A stretch of 11,110 nucleotides of DNA from contig JACRGO010000171.1 of NCBI GenBank assembly GCA_016212295.1, positions 1 to 11,110 on the forward strand, in the 5' to 3' direction. The notes below the pieces were generated by a model. It was not told the DNA's origin. It made no database searches and saw only the letters and a program-made list of their open reading frames with translations. A program made the position numbers and the translations under genes. This DNA is from Nitrospinota bacterium (GTDB lineage Bacteria; Nitrospinota; Nitrospinia; JACRGO01). Numbering within the stretch: the first letter of the stretch is position 1; each line of letters starts with the position of its first letter. This document shows, piece by piece, positions 2,598 through 7,890 of this stretch.

Positions 2598-3875
2598 TTA
2601 GGAAACAGCGGTAAGGGCCTCAGGCACAGGGAAAAGTTCACCCTTTTCCTCGAGCGTTTTCCAATCCTCAGGCGTCAAACCAATCTCTTCATCCGTGAGA
2701 TAACAGCCCGGATCAGGGGCGAAGGGGTCGCCGTATACCAGGTCGGCCCGGACCCTCAATGACCCGCCGCACGCCTTGAACCACTTGCACAGGCTGCATT
2801 TCCCTTTTATGCGGCTCGGCCTGGACTTGAGTCCGGCCATGAGCTTGTCAGAGGTGTCCAGCCAGATTACGCTGAATTTTCTTTCGCGCACGTTCCCGAA
2901 GGAGTAGTGCATCCAGAATTGGTCGGCGTGGACGTTTCCCAGGAAGTCTATGTCCCCGAATCCCACGCCGGAGCTGTATGTCCCGCCGCCGTTCCACTCA
3001 AGCTGTTTCAGCACCTCCGCGGCTTTTTGCGGATCATTTTGCAAAAGCTTCATGTAAAGGTAGATGCCGTCCACATGGTTATCAACCGTCAGTATGTCCT
3101 TGTCCATGCCGCGCTTATGGAAGTCCTCGGTCCTGTCCAGAATAATATCCATTGCGTGCCTGGTCTCCTGGTGGGTAAGGTCGTTTCCCTGGATGTCCCT
3201 GCCTCTTCCGGAATAAACGAGATGGTAAAAGCAGGCCCGCTGAATATTTTCCGCCTCAATGAAGTCGAATATCTGGTTAAGGTTTTCATAGTTATGGCGG
3301 GTGAGGGTAAGGCGCAACCCCACTCGCTGTCCGGTCTCCACGCAATTCCTGAACCCGGTCATTGCCTGCTCGAACGCCTTTTCCTTTCCGCGGAAATAGT
3401 CGTTGATTTCTCCTATGCCGTCCAGGCTGATGCCCACGTAGGCCATGCCGATCTCGTGTAGTTCCCTGGCTATGTCCTTGGTGATGAGGGTGCCGTTGGT
3501 GCTGAGGGTGGTTCGTATTCCCTTGCCCTTGGCGTAGCGGACCAGTTCAAAGAGGTCCGGGCGCACCAGGGGCTCGCCGCCTGAAAAAAGGAGGGCCGGG
3601 ATTTTGAATTCCGCGAGGTCATCGATAAGGGCCTTTCCTTCTTCGTTTGTCAGCTCGCCGGCGTACTTTTTTCCTTCCGAGTCGCTGTAGCAGTGGATGC
3701 ATTTGAGATTGCAGGAGCGGGTGACGTTCCAGGCCGTGACAGGCCGCCTCTCGGCGGCGGTTTTCGGGGTGGCGTGGGCCATCGGCCGGGCCGCCATGTG
3801 CTCGGACTGATGGCCGTAACGTATGGCGTCACCTGGATTTTCGTGGCCGCAATAAAGTTTTGATATTCCAATCAT
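2598..3875 (-). CDS. ahbC: AhbC, 12,18-didecarboxysiroheme deacetylase (radical SAM)
   Basis: A 425-residue radical SAM/SPASM enzyme. AhbC removes the two acetate side chains of 12,18-didecarboxysiroheme, giving Fe-coproporphyrin III for AhbD. Visible: the N-terminal signature MIGISKLYCG typical of the family, the radical SAM motif CNLKCIHC (C55, C59, C62), GGEP at 99-102, STNGTL, GISLDG, the central FYHLVYSGRGRD and TVDNHVDG segments, GNVHADQFW, and a SPASM-like C-terminus with C360, C363, C369 and C391. The C-terminal APDPGCYLTDEEIG also fits AhbC. Length matches the family (about 390-430); residues 20-45 are a variable linker. The start is secure: GGAGA sits 7 nt before the ATG, after a run of A. 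A possible promoter is listed upstream. ahbD follows after a repeat-filled 300-bp spacer, so cotranscription is possible but unproven. Confidence 0.88.
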   Translation of the reverse strand: MIGISKLYCGHENPGDAIRYGHQSEHMAARPMAHATPKTAAERRPVTAWNVTRSCNLKCIHCYSDSEGKKYAGELTNEEGKALIDDLAEFKIPALLFSGGEPLVRPDLFELVRYAKGKGIRTTLSTNGTLITKDIARELHEIGMAYVGISLDGIGEINDYFRGKEKAFEQAMTGFRNCVETGQRVGLRLTLTRHNYENLNQIFDFIEAENIQRACFYHLVYSGRGRDIQGNDLTHQETRHAMDIILDRTEDFHKRGMDKDILTVDNHVDGIYLYMKLLQNDPQKAAEVLKQLEWNGGGTYSSGVGFGDIDFLGNVHADQFWMHYSFGNVRERKFSVIWLDTSDKLMAGLKSRPSRIKGKCSLCKWFKACGGSLRVRADLVYGDPFAPDPGCYLTDEEIGLTPEDWKTLEEKGELFPVPEALTAVS

Positions 3876-4104: not shown

Positions 4105-4944
4105 CTAGGACTCCAATCCCAAATTTGGCGGAATAGCGGTGAATTCCTCCACGTCCTCGAAGAGGAGTTGGGCGTTGACCAGCAAGATGAACTTATCACC
4201 TTTCAGGTTTCTTGCGGTTTTTCCCACCAGATGGTTTTGAAGCCGGCCGGAAAAGCCCGGAATGTCTTGAACGCTCTCCTCCTGTAAATATTCCACGGAC
4301 TCCACTGAGTCAACTGAGAGGCTTATGGTCTTGTCCTCATGGTGAAGGACCATCGATATTTCAGTCATGGATTCATGAAGGAGCTTGCGGGCCGTTTCAA
4401 ACAGATTTACCAGCTCAGCGAGGATGCCATGCCGGGTTTCTTCTATGCGCCGGTATGCCTGGCCGTGTTCTCCACTTTTCACGAGGTCTATGACTTCGCC
4501 CGCCAGGGAGTGGATTCGCTTGTGGGGCGCGTCAAACTTTTTCATGTGGTTTTCAAGGATGATATTGGGCGCTTTGTAGCTATCGTACCACTTGCCGAAT
4601 TTGCATTGATGGGGATCGGTGGCAAGTTTGAAGACACGCGACTCCCGCACGGACGCCTCCAGCTCCGCCAGCCAGTTTTTGTGGTCTTGCTCCCGCTCCT
4701 TCAACAGTTCAATAAGGTTTTCCGTTTCAGTTTGAACAGTCGGCATCTTCAATATTTTCCGCAAATCAGCCACGGTTATGACCTTATCCCGCAGCTTCAT
4801 CACACCCCGTATGTAATCAGGGACCTGCGGTATTCTGTTCAGCTTGGGTAAGACCACCATCTCAGTCACAAAAATGCTGTAGATGCCGAAATACCGGTCT
4901 CCTATCTTGAAAATGATCCATGGAAATTTTGTTTCGAATGTCAT
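4105..4944 (-). CDS. CheW-like scaffold with an internal CZB zinc-binding domain
   Basis: A 279-residue chemotaxis-type adaptor. Residues 8-68 are the first half of a CheW domain (WIIFKIGDRYFGI, IPQVPDYIRGVMKLRDKVI, VADLRKIL). Residues 195-266 are the second half (ISMVLHHEDKTISLSVDSV, then KGDKFILLVNAQLLFED). Between them is a helical CZB (chemoreceptor zinc-binding) domain, about 75-190, with KFGKWY. The CZB three-His/one-Cys zinc site can be read as H88, C114, H141 and H145; the 27- and 4-residue spacings between the last three equal those of DgcZ (C52, H79, H83). CheW normally couples receptors to CheA. Here the fold is split at the loop where CheW usually has a short linker, so zinc or an oxidant sensed by CZB could modulate scaffold function (inference). 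No other chemotaxis gene is in the window. No strong Shine-Dalgarno precedes the ATG at 4944; the next ATG is at residue 29, inside the CheW fold, so 4944 is preferred. Confidence 0.85.
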   Translation of the reverse strand: MTFETKFPWIIFKIGDRYFGIYSIFVTEMVVLPKLNRIPQVPDYIRGVMKLRDKVITVADLRKILKMPTVQTETENLIELLKEREQDHKNWLAELEASVRESRVFKLATDPHQCKFGKWYDSYKAPNIILENHMKKFDAPHKRIHSLAGEVIDLVKSGEHGQAYRRIEETRHGILAELVNLFETARKLLHESMTEISMVLHHEDKTISLSVDSVESVEYLQEESVQDIPGFSGRLQNHLVGKTARNLKGDKFILLVNAQLLFEDVEEFTAIPPNLGLES

Positions 4945-5008
4945 AGCGCGGCTTGTTTAAAAAAATATTTATATACTTTACAAGGTCACAAACGGTGATT
5001 TATTATTA

Positions 5009-5250
5009 ACCACGAAATACACGAACTACACGAAAAAATTACAGAATAATTCTTTCAACCTGGGCCTTTGGATAATGTCCGGTTTATAGATTTGCCGGAG
5101 CTGCTCGCCTTTATAAAAAAGGCTAAGCTCTTTTTGGGAAATGAAAGGAATATTTTGCCTGCAAAGTTCTTTTTGAATACTGCCCCCTGAATGGAAAAAT
5201 ATTCCTTGAATAAAATTTTTTCGTGTGTTTCGTGTATTTCGTGGTTCAAT
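5009..5250. repeat. Inverted-repeat element, CACGAA type, enclosing a protein remnant
   Basis: The 33-nt left arm (5009-5041, beginning AACCACGAAATACACGAA) matches the complement of 5213-5247 with only about two differences, the best-preserved arms in the window. Unlike the other elements its interior is long (about 170 bp) and carries the GxxExxY-like fragment. It fills much of the 480-bp geneless interval 4945-5424. Confidence 0.85.
5047..5187 (-). pseudogene. Remnant of a GxxExxY-type protein
   Basis: Minus-strand translation of this stretch gives IQKELCRQNIPFISQKELSL followed by FYKGEQLRQIYKPDII. This resembles the core of GxxExxY proteins (compare the family pattern YxxALxxELxxxGIPFxxQxxLPVxYKGxxLGxYRxDFI). 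It then diverges (QRPRLKEL) where the family has its VELKA motif. The GxxExxY motif itself is degraded to GGSIQKEL and the N-terminal third is missing, so this is a fragment of about 47 codons, not a gene. The family is thought to have a PD-(D/E)XK nuclease-like fold. The fragment lies wholly between the arms of the 5009-5250 inverted repeat; the frame upstream of it is repeat-encoded (NHEIHETHEK / RNTRNTRK type translation). Confidence 0.5.
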
Positions 5251-5283: not shown

Positions 5284-5407
5284 TTCCTGCTTTCGCGGGA
5301 ATGGCTGGTGAAAAATCACCATTTGTAACCATATTGAGTATAACTTATTATAACCGCAAAGAAGCAAAATTTATAATCTGAAAATTTTTTCTCTCCGCGT
5401 TTGGTTA
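5284..5407. repeat. Hairpins and an inverted repeat downstream of nagZ
   Basis: TTCCTGCTTTCGCGGGAA (5284-5301) is a hairpin of the widely dispersed ATTCCCGCGAAAGCGGGAAT type. GGTGAAAAATCACC (5307-5320) is a second small hairpin. TAACCGCAAAGAAGCAAAAT (5351-5370) and its imperfect complement ending CGCGTTTGGTTA (to 5407) form a third inverted repeat. Apart from these and the 5009-5250 element I see nothing in 4945-5424. Confidence 0.6.
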
Positions 5408-5424: not shown

Positions 5425-6426
5425 TCAAACCGTCAGACGGTTTTTCAGCCTCATTACACGTTCCAGTGATTCATCTATCCGCTTTTCCTGGATGCGTCCG
5501 CTTTTCACAGCGTTCTGGAGAGACCGGAAGGCGGTTTCCTGTTTTTCGCGGTCCCGGCAAATCAGAAGAATATCGCAGCCGGCCTCAACCGCCCTGACGC
5601 ACGCCTCCGGGAAATCGTGGCATTCAGGCACGGCCCCCATCTCCATGTCATCGGAAAAAACAAGTCCCTTAAAGCCCATTTCCTCCCGGAGGAGACCGGT
5701 GAGTATCCGGCGCGAAAAGGTGGCGGCGCATTGCGGGTCGATATTTTTATAGACAACGTGCGCGCTCATGAGCATTTCAAGTCCGCCTTTTATTCCATTG
5801 ACAAAGGGGACCAGCTCCACCTTTGCCATCTGTTTCATTGAAGTATCAACTTCAGGGAGGCACGCATGGGAATCAAGGGAGGTGTGGCCGTGGCCGGGAA
5901 AGTGTTTTCCAACCGGGAATACCCCGCCTTCCATGAACCCTTGAATGGCGGCCACGCCGTGCCTGGAAACCAGGAGCGGATCAGGACCGTACGATCTGTC
6001 CCCTATGATCGGATTATCCGGATTAGTGTCCACATCCAGCACCGGGGCAAAGTTGATATTAAGTCCCGAGTCACGAAGTTCCTTTCCAACCGCCCTGGCG
6101 TTTTCTCTGGTTTTTTCAGGTGCATTCAATTCGCCCCAGGTCCTGTTTGGCGGAGACTCAATAAAAGGCGGCCCAAAGCGCTTGACCCTGCCGCCTTCCT
6201 GGTCCACTCCTATGAATAGGGGAGGAGCGCCGGGGTTATAGCGGAGATTCCACTCCTGGATAGTGGAACAAAGGTTCCGGACTTGTCCTTTGTCCTTGTA
6301 ATTCCTGGAAAAGAGTATAACGCCGCCGAAGGGAAAGTCCTTGAAAAATTCGAGCAGATCATCGGAAGGGGAGGGACCCTCAAACCCCACCATGATCAAC
6401 TGCCCGATTTTTGAGAGGAGGTTCAT
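5425..6426 (-). CDS. nagZ: NagZ, beta-N-acetylhexosaminidase (GH3)
   Basis: A 333-residue glycoside hydrolase family 3 enzyme with no signal peptide, hence cytoplasmic. NagZ removes N-acetylglucosamine from GlcNAc-1,6-anhydroMurNAc-peptides during peptidoglycan recycling. Visible (numbered from the ATG at 6426): the start MNLLSKIGQLIMVGF, VDQEGGRVKRF (74-84), the NagZ signature KHFPGHGHTSLDSH (174-187) with the catalytic His/Asp pair, MSAHVVY, and the nucleophile segment FSDDMEMG (257-264, nucleophile D259). The frame stays open upstream to a TTG at 6522, which would add 32 residues. Those codons come from an inverted-repeat element (NIEYRTPNFE-type spurious translation) and have no counterpart in NagZ, so I chose 6426. 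No clear Shine-Dalgarno is present for either start. It stands alone, 180 bp downstream of the DAHP synthase gene. Confidence 0.93.
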   Translation of the reverse strand: MNLLSKIGQLIMVGFEGPSPSDDLLEFFKDFPFGGVILFSRNYKDKGQVRNLCSTIQEWNLRYNPGAPPLFIGVDQEGGRVKRFGPPFIESPPNRTWGELNAPEKTRENARAVGKELRDSGLNINFAPVLDVDTNPDNPIIGDRSYGPDPLLVSRHGVAAIQGFMEGGVFPVGKHFPGHGHTSLDSHACLPEVDTSMKQMAKVELVPFVNGIKGGLEMLMSAHVVYKNIDPQCAATFSRRILTGLLREEMGFKGLVFSDDMEMGAVPECHDFPEACVRAVEAGCDILLICRDREKQETAFRSLQNAVKSGRIQEKRIDESLERVMRLKNRLTV

Positions 6427-6447
6427 GTGCAAGGAAAAAAAGAATTT

Positions 6448-6523
6448 TGAACAAGGAATAATGAATTTCGAAGGGGGAAAAGTGCAGACTTCAAAATTCG
6501 GTGTTCGATATTCGATATTCAAT
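6448..6523. repeat. Inverted-repeat element, AATATCGAA type, upstream of nagZ
   Basis: 6448-6474 (TTGAACAAGGAATAATGAAT...CGAAG) is imperfectly complementary to 6489-6523 (CTTCAAAATTCGGTGTTCGA, then TATTCGATATTCAAT). It is the source of the misleading 32-codon upstream extension of nagZ. The remainder, 6524-6606, shows only a short ACTAAAGT direct repeat on the minus strand. Confidence 0.65.
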
Positions 6524-7626: not shown

Positions 7627-7768
7627 TTCACACCTCAAAAAAATAAAAAGTCATTAGTCACTTTAATCTTGATCTTGAAAGTCTAACATAAGGCCGCCAT
7701 TTAGTCTATATTAGATACTTACACGTGCACTCTGAGAATTCGCCTCTCACAATTTTAAAAAAGACATA

Positions 7769-7890
7769 GAACGCGGATTACGCGGATGAGACGGATCTAC
7801 ACGGATTTAAAACGTATAAATTTAGATTATTGAAAATAGAAATCATAAAAAATCCGCGCGAATCCGTTTTATCCGTGTCATCTGTGTTCC
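7769..7890. repeat. Inverted-repeat element, ACGCGGAT type
   Basis: The left arm 7769-7810 (AACGCGGATTACGCGGATGA...) pairs imperfectly with 7848-7890 (AAATCCGCGCGAATCCG... ATCCGTGTCATC). Each arm is a run of degenerate 9-10-mers ending in GGAT. It lies in the 359-bp geneless interval 7627-7985, which otherwise holds the following repeat and no gene. Confidence 0.8.

Follow-up and report, generated by a model that had tools for sequence, protein, structure and literature searches.

An internally deleted GxxExxY gene between inverted arms

The element studied here lies between the protein genes 4105-4944 and 5425-6522 of the window, by which we mean the whole stretch of 11,110 nucleotides analysed. 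Its left inner arm (5008-5040, plus strand; AACCACGAAATACACGAACTACACGAAAAAATT) contains three CACGAA units at 9-nt spacing, and its right inner arm (5214-5246, minus strand) is the reverse complement of the left one, with agreement at 31 of 33 positions (94%; inverted repeat I3). The two 33-nt arms are separated by 173 nt. The preliminary description had reported about 31 of 33 matching positions and ranked this repeat above all others here; both points hold, with a start one base to the left of the 5009 given there, and the pair is the best matched of those listed at this length. A longer arm pair of the window (arms of 50 nt separated by 1390 nt) reaches only 82% complementarity. When the window was shuffled 20 times with its dinucleotide composition kept, the best inverted repeat of 33 nt with arms no more than 300 nt apart had 21-24 matches, compared with 31 in the real sequence.

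The interior (5041-5213, minus strand) carries the remnant of a GxxExxY (PD-(D/E)XK) gene. The minus-strand open reading frame 5367-5026 matches TIGR04256 over profile positions 31-65 (E 2.7e-4, 21.3 bits, below the curated cut-off of 35) and PF13366 (E 3.7e-4, 21.3 bits, below the cut-off of 22); the remnant, which is a deleted fragment, thus stays below the curated cut-offs of both families. Alignment of the DNA to L002, an intact copy on contig C107 of the same genome (G000), settles the matter, and on this comparison the weak profile match is genuine: the remnant region aligns in two blocks, at 95% and 91% identity. The earlier reading of the minus-strand interior as a decayed GxxExxY gene is therefore borne out. 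Read from the alignment, the remnant has two internal deletions relative to L002, of about 130 nt and 58 nt. The larger removed the ExK and Q/Y region and the smaller the GxxExxY motif, and because of these losses the window copy would be unable to encode an active enzyme; CRQNIPFISQKEL..IYKPDII is retained.

Intact genes and deletion derivatives in the same genome

G000 encodes four intact GxxExxY genes, and all four lie between inverted arms, built from CACGAA (L002), CGCGGAT (L003), CACGGA (L004) or CAGGAT (L001) units. The CACGAA arms of L002 are 85% complementary over 39 nt, stand 358 nt apart and flank an open frame of 134 codons; its product (134 aa, no stop) matches TIGR04256 over profile positions 3-116 with 139.2 bits. 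L002 is the kind of copy that the preliminary description had envisaged, a full GxxExxY gene inside the same arms. Differently deleted relatives of L002 were found at six or more sites besides the window (C187, C209, C200, C174, C153 and C49). Like the window copy, these are non-coding deletion derivatives with both terminal inverted repeats, present in several copies, as is typical of MITEs. Pattern searches, from which all genome-wide counts for G000 derive, detected 155 tandem CACGAA pairs in this genome, against 2 for the reversed pattern.

Nested and neighbouring repeats of the window

The inner arms are enclosed by an imperfect outer inverted repeat that is absent from the preliminary description. 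Its left arm (4972-5001, plus strand; TATACTTTACAAGGTCACAAACGGTGATTT) pairs at 24 of 30 positions with its right arm (5313-5342, minus strand), and the same outer sequence recurs at C187, C174, C153, C114 and C54. The left outer frame of the window is common to C187, C174 and C153, and the right outer frame wholly or partly so; the window copy may thus have spread with the outer repeat, and its movement in particular may be due to it. Through L002 and C49, which have at most about 9-14 nt of the left outer frame in common with the window, the inner unit is present at other sites without that frame. The dispersed outer repeat (TATACTTTACAAGGTCACAAAYGGTGATTT) has partial occurrences elsewhere, including C54, C114 and C138 of G000, and the one at C138 resembles an outer-repeat copy without an inner element.

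Two further repeats of the window show the unit patterns of GxxExxY elements. The first, a gene-free hairpin (981-1070), has CRCRRAG units (TTCACCGCGGAGACACAGAGGCGCAGAG ... CTCCGCGTCTGCGATCTCCGCGGTGAA; unit pattern at 986-1008) in the arm grammar of these elements. The second, a gene-free inverted repeat (7767-7890), has CGCGGAT/CACGGAT units like those at the GxxExxY genes L003 and L069 (unit pairs 7772-7787 on the plus and 7871-7886 on the minus strand). In both cases, the arms were read from the sequence. A third gene-free inverted repeat (3-104; repeats I8 and I9) follows a second arm grammar, with heptad units (AACATCG/AACGTCC) that are those of L375, a TIGR02436 locus in the congener G001. 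The suggestion that short inverted repeats in the other spacers are relatives of a GxxExxY element was thus right in part: gene-free internal deletions do occur at several sites, but some spacers of the window hold heptad-armed repeats of the second class, and therefore not all of its short inverted repeats are such relatives.

Another gene-free inverted repeat of the window, with heptad-like units, is found at 2396-2532, and its part 2396-2432 is similar to the arms of L363 and L390 (CAAATAACAAATAAAT). The window also encodes two radical SAM genes of the kind known from the alternative haem pathway, one above the cut-off for heme b synthase (ahbD; 1134-2297) and one with a NirJ1/AhbC match below cut-off (2598-3875).

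GxxExxY genes lie between inverted arms in many phyla

Within the phylum of the window, 38 of 42 GxxExxY genes with usable flanks scored above the 99% shuffle threshold. We also fetched 80 named loci from Chloroflexota, Planctomycetota, Acidobacteriota, Pseudomonadota, Cyanobacteriota, Bacteroidota, Verrucomicrobiota and other phyla. Among the 77 with usable flanks, 60 were bracketed (score of at least 14), compared with 1 of 65 control ORFs from the same loci; the named loci are the 80 top-scoring matches to a single subfamily-weighted query and so do not sample the family at random. Flanks mispaired between different GxxExxY loci reached 16%, because the arms have a motif in common. The layout of inverted arms brackets most GxxExxY genes in more than 10 bacterial phyla, contrary to the lack of association that the preliminary description had named as evidence against its proposal.

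Across 77 genomes of the phylum, CGCARAG pairs occurred at 778 sites and the reversed pattern at 33. The median number of arm-pair sites per genome was 11 with a GxxExxY gene and 0 without one (uncorrected for phylogeny). Many arm-pair sites were also present in G021, G034 and similar genomes in which no GxxExxY gene was detected. Hairpins of the ACCRCRRAG type are abundant in several of the genomes examined.

Spread by plasmids or phages was considered as well; a single GxxExxY query of plasmid and phage records returned 8 plasmid records and no phage, a near absence. Five plasmid loci, picked as best matches, scored 18-34.5 (Bacteroides, Sphingomonas, Bernardetia and Gemmatirosa) and 11 (Treponema), and the single locus on a viral contig, likewise a best match, scored 21.

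Arm anatomy and coupling to the nuclease

Anchored alignment of the GxxExxY arms showed TT[A/C]ACCRCRRAG followed by more CRCRRAG units, and the usual arm has three tandem units (CRCNRAK in general) at 8-10-nt spacing. In 47 elements with at least three units on both sides, the spacing vectors of the left and right arm are equal in 91%, compared with 21% between elements. The two arms of one element agree in 94.7% of unit letters and in 52% of spacer letters. Conserved units and spacing with drifting spacer letters would fit recognition of units at a set spacing; equal spacer lengths would also be expected from a hairpin with symmetric internal loops. A reading of the arms as RNA hairpins found no support, as G.U mismatches did not significantly outnumber A.C mismatches in the sense strand of the arms (p 0.08 and 0.87) and an Rfam search of the window gave no match.

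The units are coupled to the nuclease clade. On the nuclease tree, the last letter of the unit (position 7, G or T/A) undergoes 3 changes against 17.2 in shuffles, and 3 against 12.3 within the phylum of the window; since a dozen unit labels were assigned manually and the shuffling disregards common descent of orthologous copies, these values indicate that arms and gene travel together and do not by themselves indicate binding. Positions 2 and 5 do not follow the nuclease tree in other phyla, and the coupling is carried by position 7, position 4 and the phylum of the window.

A second family with heptad arms

TIGR02436, a small multi-copy family of four-helix bundle proteins that is frequent in these genomes, with 19 matches in G000, was chosen as a specificity control. 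We examined loci L327-L396 (G000, G001 and relatives) and the plasmid loci L397-L406. As a negative control the family failed, being bracketed as often as GxxExxY: 52 of 59 loci passed the same threshold (mispaired flanks, 1.5%). Bracketing is thus not unique to GxxExxY, and with an unrelated family showing the same layout, the layout alone is no proof that the nuclease moves the element.

The arms of the two families are built differently. The autocorrelation of TIGR02436 arms peaks at lags 7 (0.55) and 14 (0.50), and that of GxxExxY arms at lags 8-10 (0.39, 0.40 and 0.34). A tandem CRCNRRK pair is present in 133 of 160 GxxExxY arms, compared with 3 of 104 TIGR02436 arms. That each of two families has its own arm grammar within the same genomes is the strongest argument that the arms are matched to the protein, and it is also the reason to keep alive the alternative that the genes are passengers (see below).

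Ten plasmid loci of TIGR02436, nine cyanobacterial and one from Gemmatirosa, were taken from the best matches; they have heptad-like units, and nine score at least 14.5 and the tenth 13.5. Two plasmid copies are located inside CRISPR operons, one of them between cas10 and a Cmr3-type gene, the other between cas6 and cas4.

The predicted nuclease

Residues D61, E71 and K73 are invariant in 19 GxxExxY relatives, as are the G, E and Y of the motif after which the family is named. The AlphaFold2 model of the relative L086 (mean pLDDT 94.9) has a restriction-endonuclease-like fold. The closest solved chain is 4ic1, the Cas4 protein SSO0001 (Z 10.1 over 98 residues, rmsd 3.2); the next matches, to restriction enzymes, Hjc and Cas4 at Z 6-8, are on their own not specific. 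A sequence search of the PDB gave no match. With the conserved D, the E-x-K and the modelled fold, the family is assigned to the PD-(D/E)XK group with putative nuclease activity, the window copy having lost ExK. No recognised transposase gene was detected inside the arms, where the only gene matches TIGR04256/PF13366.

The GxxExxY genes are under purifying selection (dN/dS 0.05-0.22 in eight computable pairs), and stops were found in 4 of the 80 named copies.

Signs of mobility and residence

The comparison of empty and filled sites suggested in the preliminary description yielded relatives without the element at two sites. At the L036 site, the flanks are about 500 bases apart in G025 and are joined over tens of bases in its congeners G040, G026, G005 and G016. 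The L042 site (G028) is near-empty only in G063 and G027, since G062, G045 and G024 carry other repeats there. For L044, G060 was tried as an empty site and was unusable, its contig being rearranged after the gene. Positions 2630-2800 of L036 (G025) contain a different intergenic repeat, which most genus g5 genomes have in many copies.

L060 and L066 occupy one site in two genera. Their gene windows are 94-99% identical, their 100-nt flank windows 57-82% and the windows straddling the element edges 84-91%, which points to a recent exchange of one element between genera at one site. L078 and L083 are different GxxExxY elements, although they occupy one site in two congeners and their flanks are 96% identical. 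Other sites are shared by elements across genera or families, an argument for long residence. Among elements at the same site in different genera, L101/L103, L102/L158 and L100/L150 lie between co-directional genes, read as a MoxR-type ATPase and a DUF58-type gene, carA and carB, and two dehydrogenase subunits.

Among 65 anchored elements, none had four or more equal bases directly outside (null 0.6%), and with offsets the values were close to the null; the element ends are approximate in this test, and very short or shifted target duplications could escape it. The lack of target duplication suggests insertion that is not of the usual transposase type. Together with the sites shared across genera or families and the near absence from plasmid and phage records, it argues against simple transposition. 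Congeners are too diverged for insertion boundaries at base level, and no DNA synteny was found at the window between G000 and its congener G001.

Proposed mechanism and alternatives

Gene and arms co-occur far above controls, and copies with and without an intact gene are present at different sites. We propose that 5008-5246 is what is left of a tiny, selfish, IVS-like, nuclease-carrying element, a decayed and non-autonomous copy with internal deletions, and give this reading a probability of roughly 0.6. The evidence for mobility consists of comparative traces, and the autonomous element is putative: it would be about 0.45-0.5 kb long, with one PD-(D/E)XK GxxExxY nuclease gene between two inverted arms. 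The nuclease would recognise the units of its own arms, as duplex DNA or as an extruded hairpin, and cut there, and host repair would then place a copy of the element at the break, much as in homing. We put recognition, cutting and repair-driven homing at about even odds, and it is from sequence comparison that we infer the nuclease to be the driver of movement. Homing-like copying would explain why no target duplication was detected, why elements turn over at one site and why the deletion derivatives have both arms.

A wider reading, which we hold tentatively and at somewhat less than even odds, is that these are widespread minimal selfish elements in which an orphan protein recognises its own inverted unit arrays. 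They would comprise at least two unrelated lineages, one with a nuclease and CRCNRAK units and one with a four-helix bundle and heptads. The nuclease lineage would move without a classical transposase, by arm cutting and homing via host repair, and the rRNA IVS and many intergenic hairpins of environmental bacteria would be members or relics.

The alternative that survives best is that the hairpins are moved by another agent, such as a reverse transcriptase or a transposase of host or foreign origin, with the GxxExxY and four-helix-bundle genes as cargo. The layout common to two unrelated protein families, the many gene-free copies, some of them in genomes without a detected gene, and the nesting of the window copy in a dispersed outer repeat speak for such transport. 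Free exchange of cargo, however, would not lead one to expect an arm grammar that tracks the protein family or a unit letter that tracks the nuclease clade, and the genes have kept their catalytic residues under purifying selection. We therefore regard carriage by another agent as unlikely, while taking it seriously.

It is considerably less probable that the arms are regulatory or processing sites, such as an operator or an RNA stem, of a useful chromosomal nuclease gene that is not selfish. Purifying selection on the gene and long residence at orthologous sites, often within operons, are consistent with a host function, but the many sites with deletion derivatives, the patchy occurrence of the element where synteny is kept, the exchange between genera (L060/L066), different elements at one site in close relatives and the missing wobble bias of the sense RNA all argue against it. 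That simple repeats flank small ORFs by accident and the remnant is a spurious HMM match, as its 21.3 bits against a cut-off of 35 might suggest, can practically be dismissed given the 91-95% DNA identity to an armed intact gene, the bracketing of 60 of 77 loci against 1 of 65 controls, and shuffles that stay at or below 24 of 33.

Comparison with known systems

The reading of the window copy as a nuclease-carrying selfish element has several parallels. If the link between gene and arms holds, it provides a testable function, that of an arm-specific nuclease, and a plausible origin for gene-free repeats. In the open-licence literature searched, GxxExxY is named in 2 papers, which give no functional data, and PF13366 in 1; no role was described there for the proteins or for the arm repeats, whose sequences had no match concerning bacteria, and an earlier description may exist elsewhere.

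Rpn (YhgA-like) nucleases are of the PD-(D/E)XK type. They have been studied for a role in DNA mobilisation, but they are a different family (PF04754, named transposase_31), and the abstract of the paper mentions no bracketing unit arrays (PMC5350276). MITEs, too, derive by internal deletion from an element with a gene and retain both arms; unlike in MITEs, the parent of the GxxExxY derivatives has no recognised transposase, and no target duplication was detected. RAYT/REPtrons and TIRtrons also have one gene between inverted repeats and many gene-free repeat copies, but their gene is an HUH tyrosine transposase (PMC3733652), whereas that of the window element is a PD-(D/E)XK GxxExxY gene.

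The closest layout is that of the 23S rRNA IVS. In Coxiella burnetii it is about 0.43 kb long and contains one small orphan S23p ORF and a 28-bp stem of terminal inverted repeats with tandem GACAGAT heptads; such IVS have been termed selfish, are sporadic and have decaying ORFs (PMC4990558). A small ORF between inverted arms of tandem short units is common to the IVS and the GxxExxY element. The IVS, however, lies within rRNA, is cut from the RNA by RNase III and has a four-helix-bundle ORF and heptads, whereas the GxxExxY element has a nuclease and CRCNRAK units. The window copy, located between protein genes and with a nuclease remnant, has neither the 23S rRNA helix nor the S23p ORF, and it matches the Coxiella IVS in layout only; with the TIGR02436 elements, the match to that IVS extends to the ORF family and the arm grammar. 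The heptad-armed family thereby ties the puzzle of the 23S rRNA IVS to intergenic elements found genome-wide, which makes the proposed mobility of the IVS testable outside rRNA. The occurrence of the layout in two unrelated families points to a class of apparently mobile elements that has received little attention, and we file the layout of the GxxExxY element as a variant of IVS-like selfish elements, with a nuclease gene and an arm grammar of its own.
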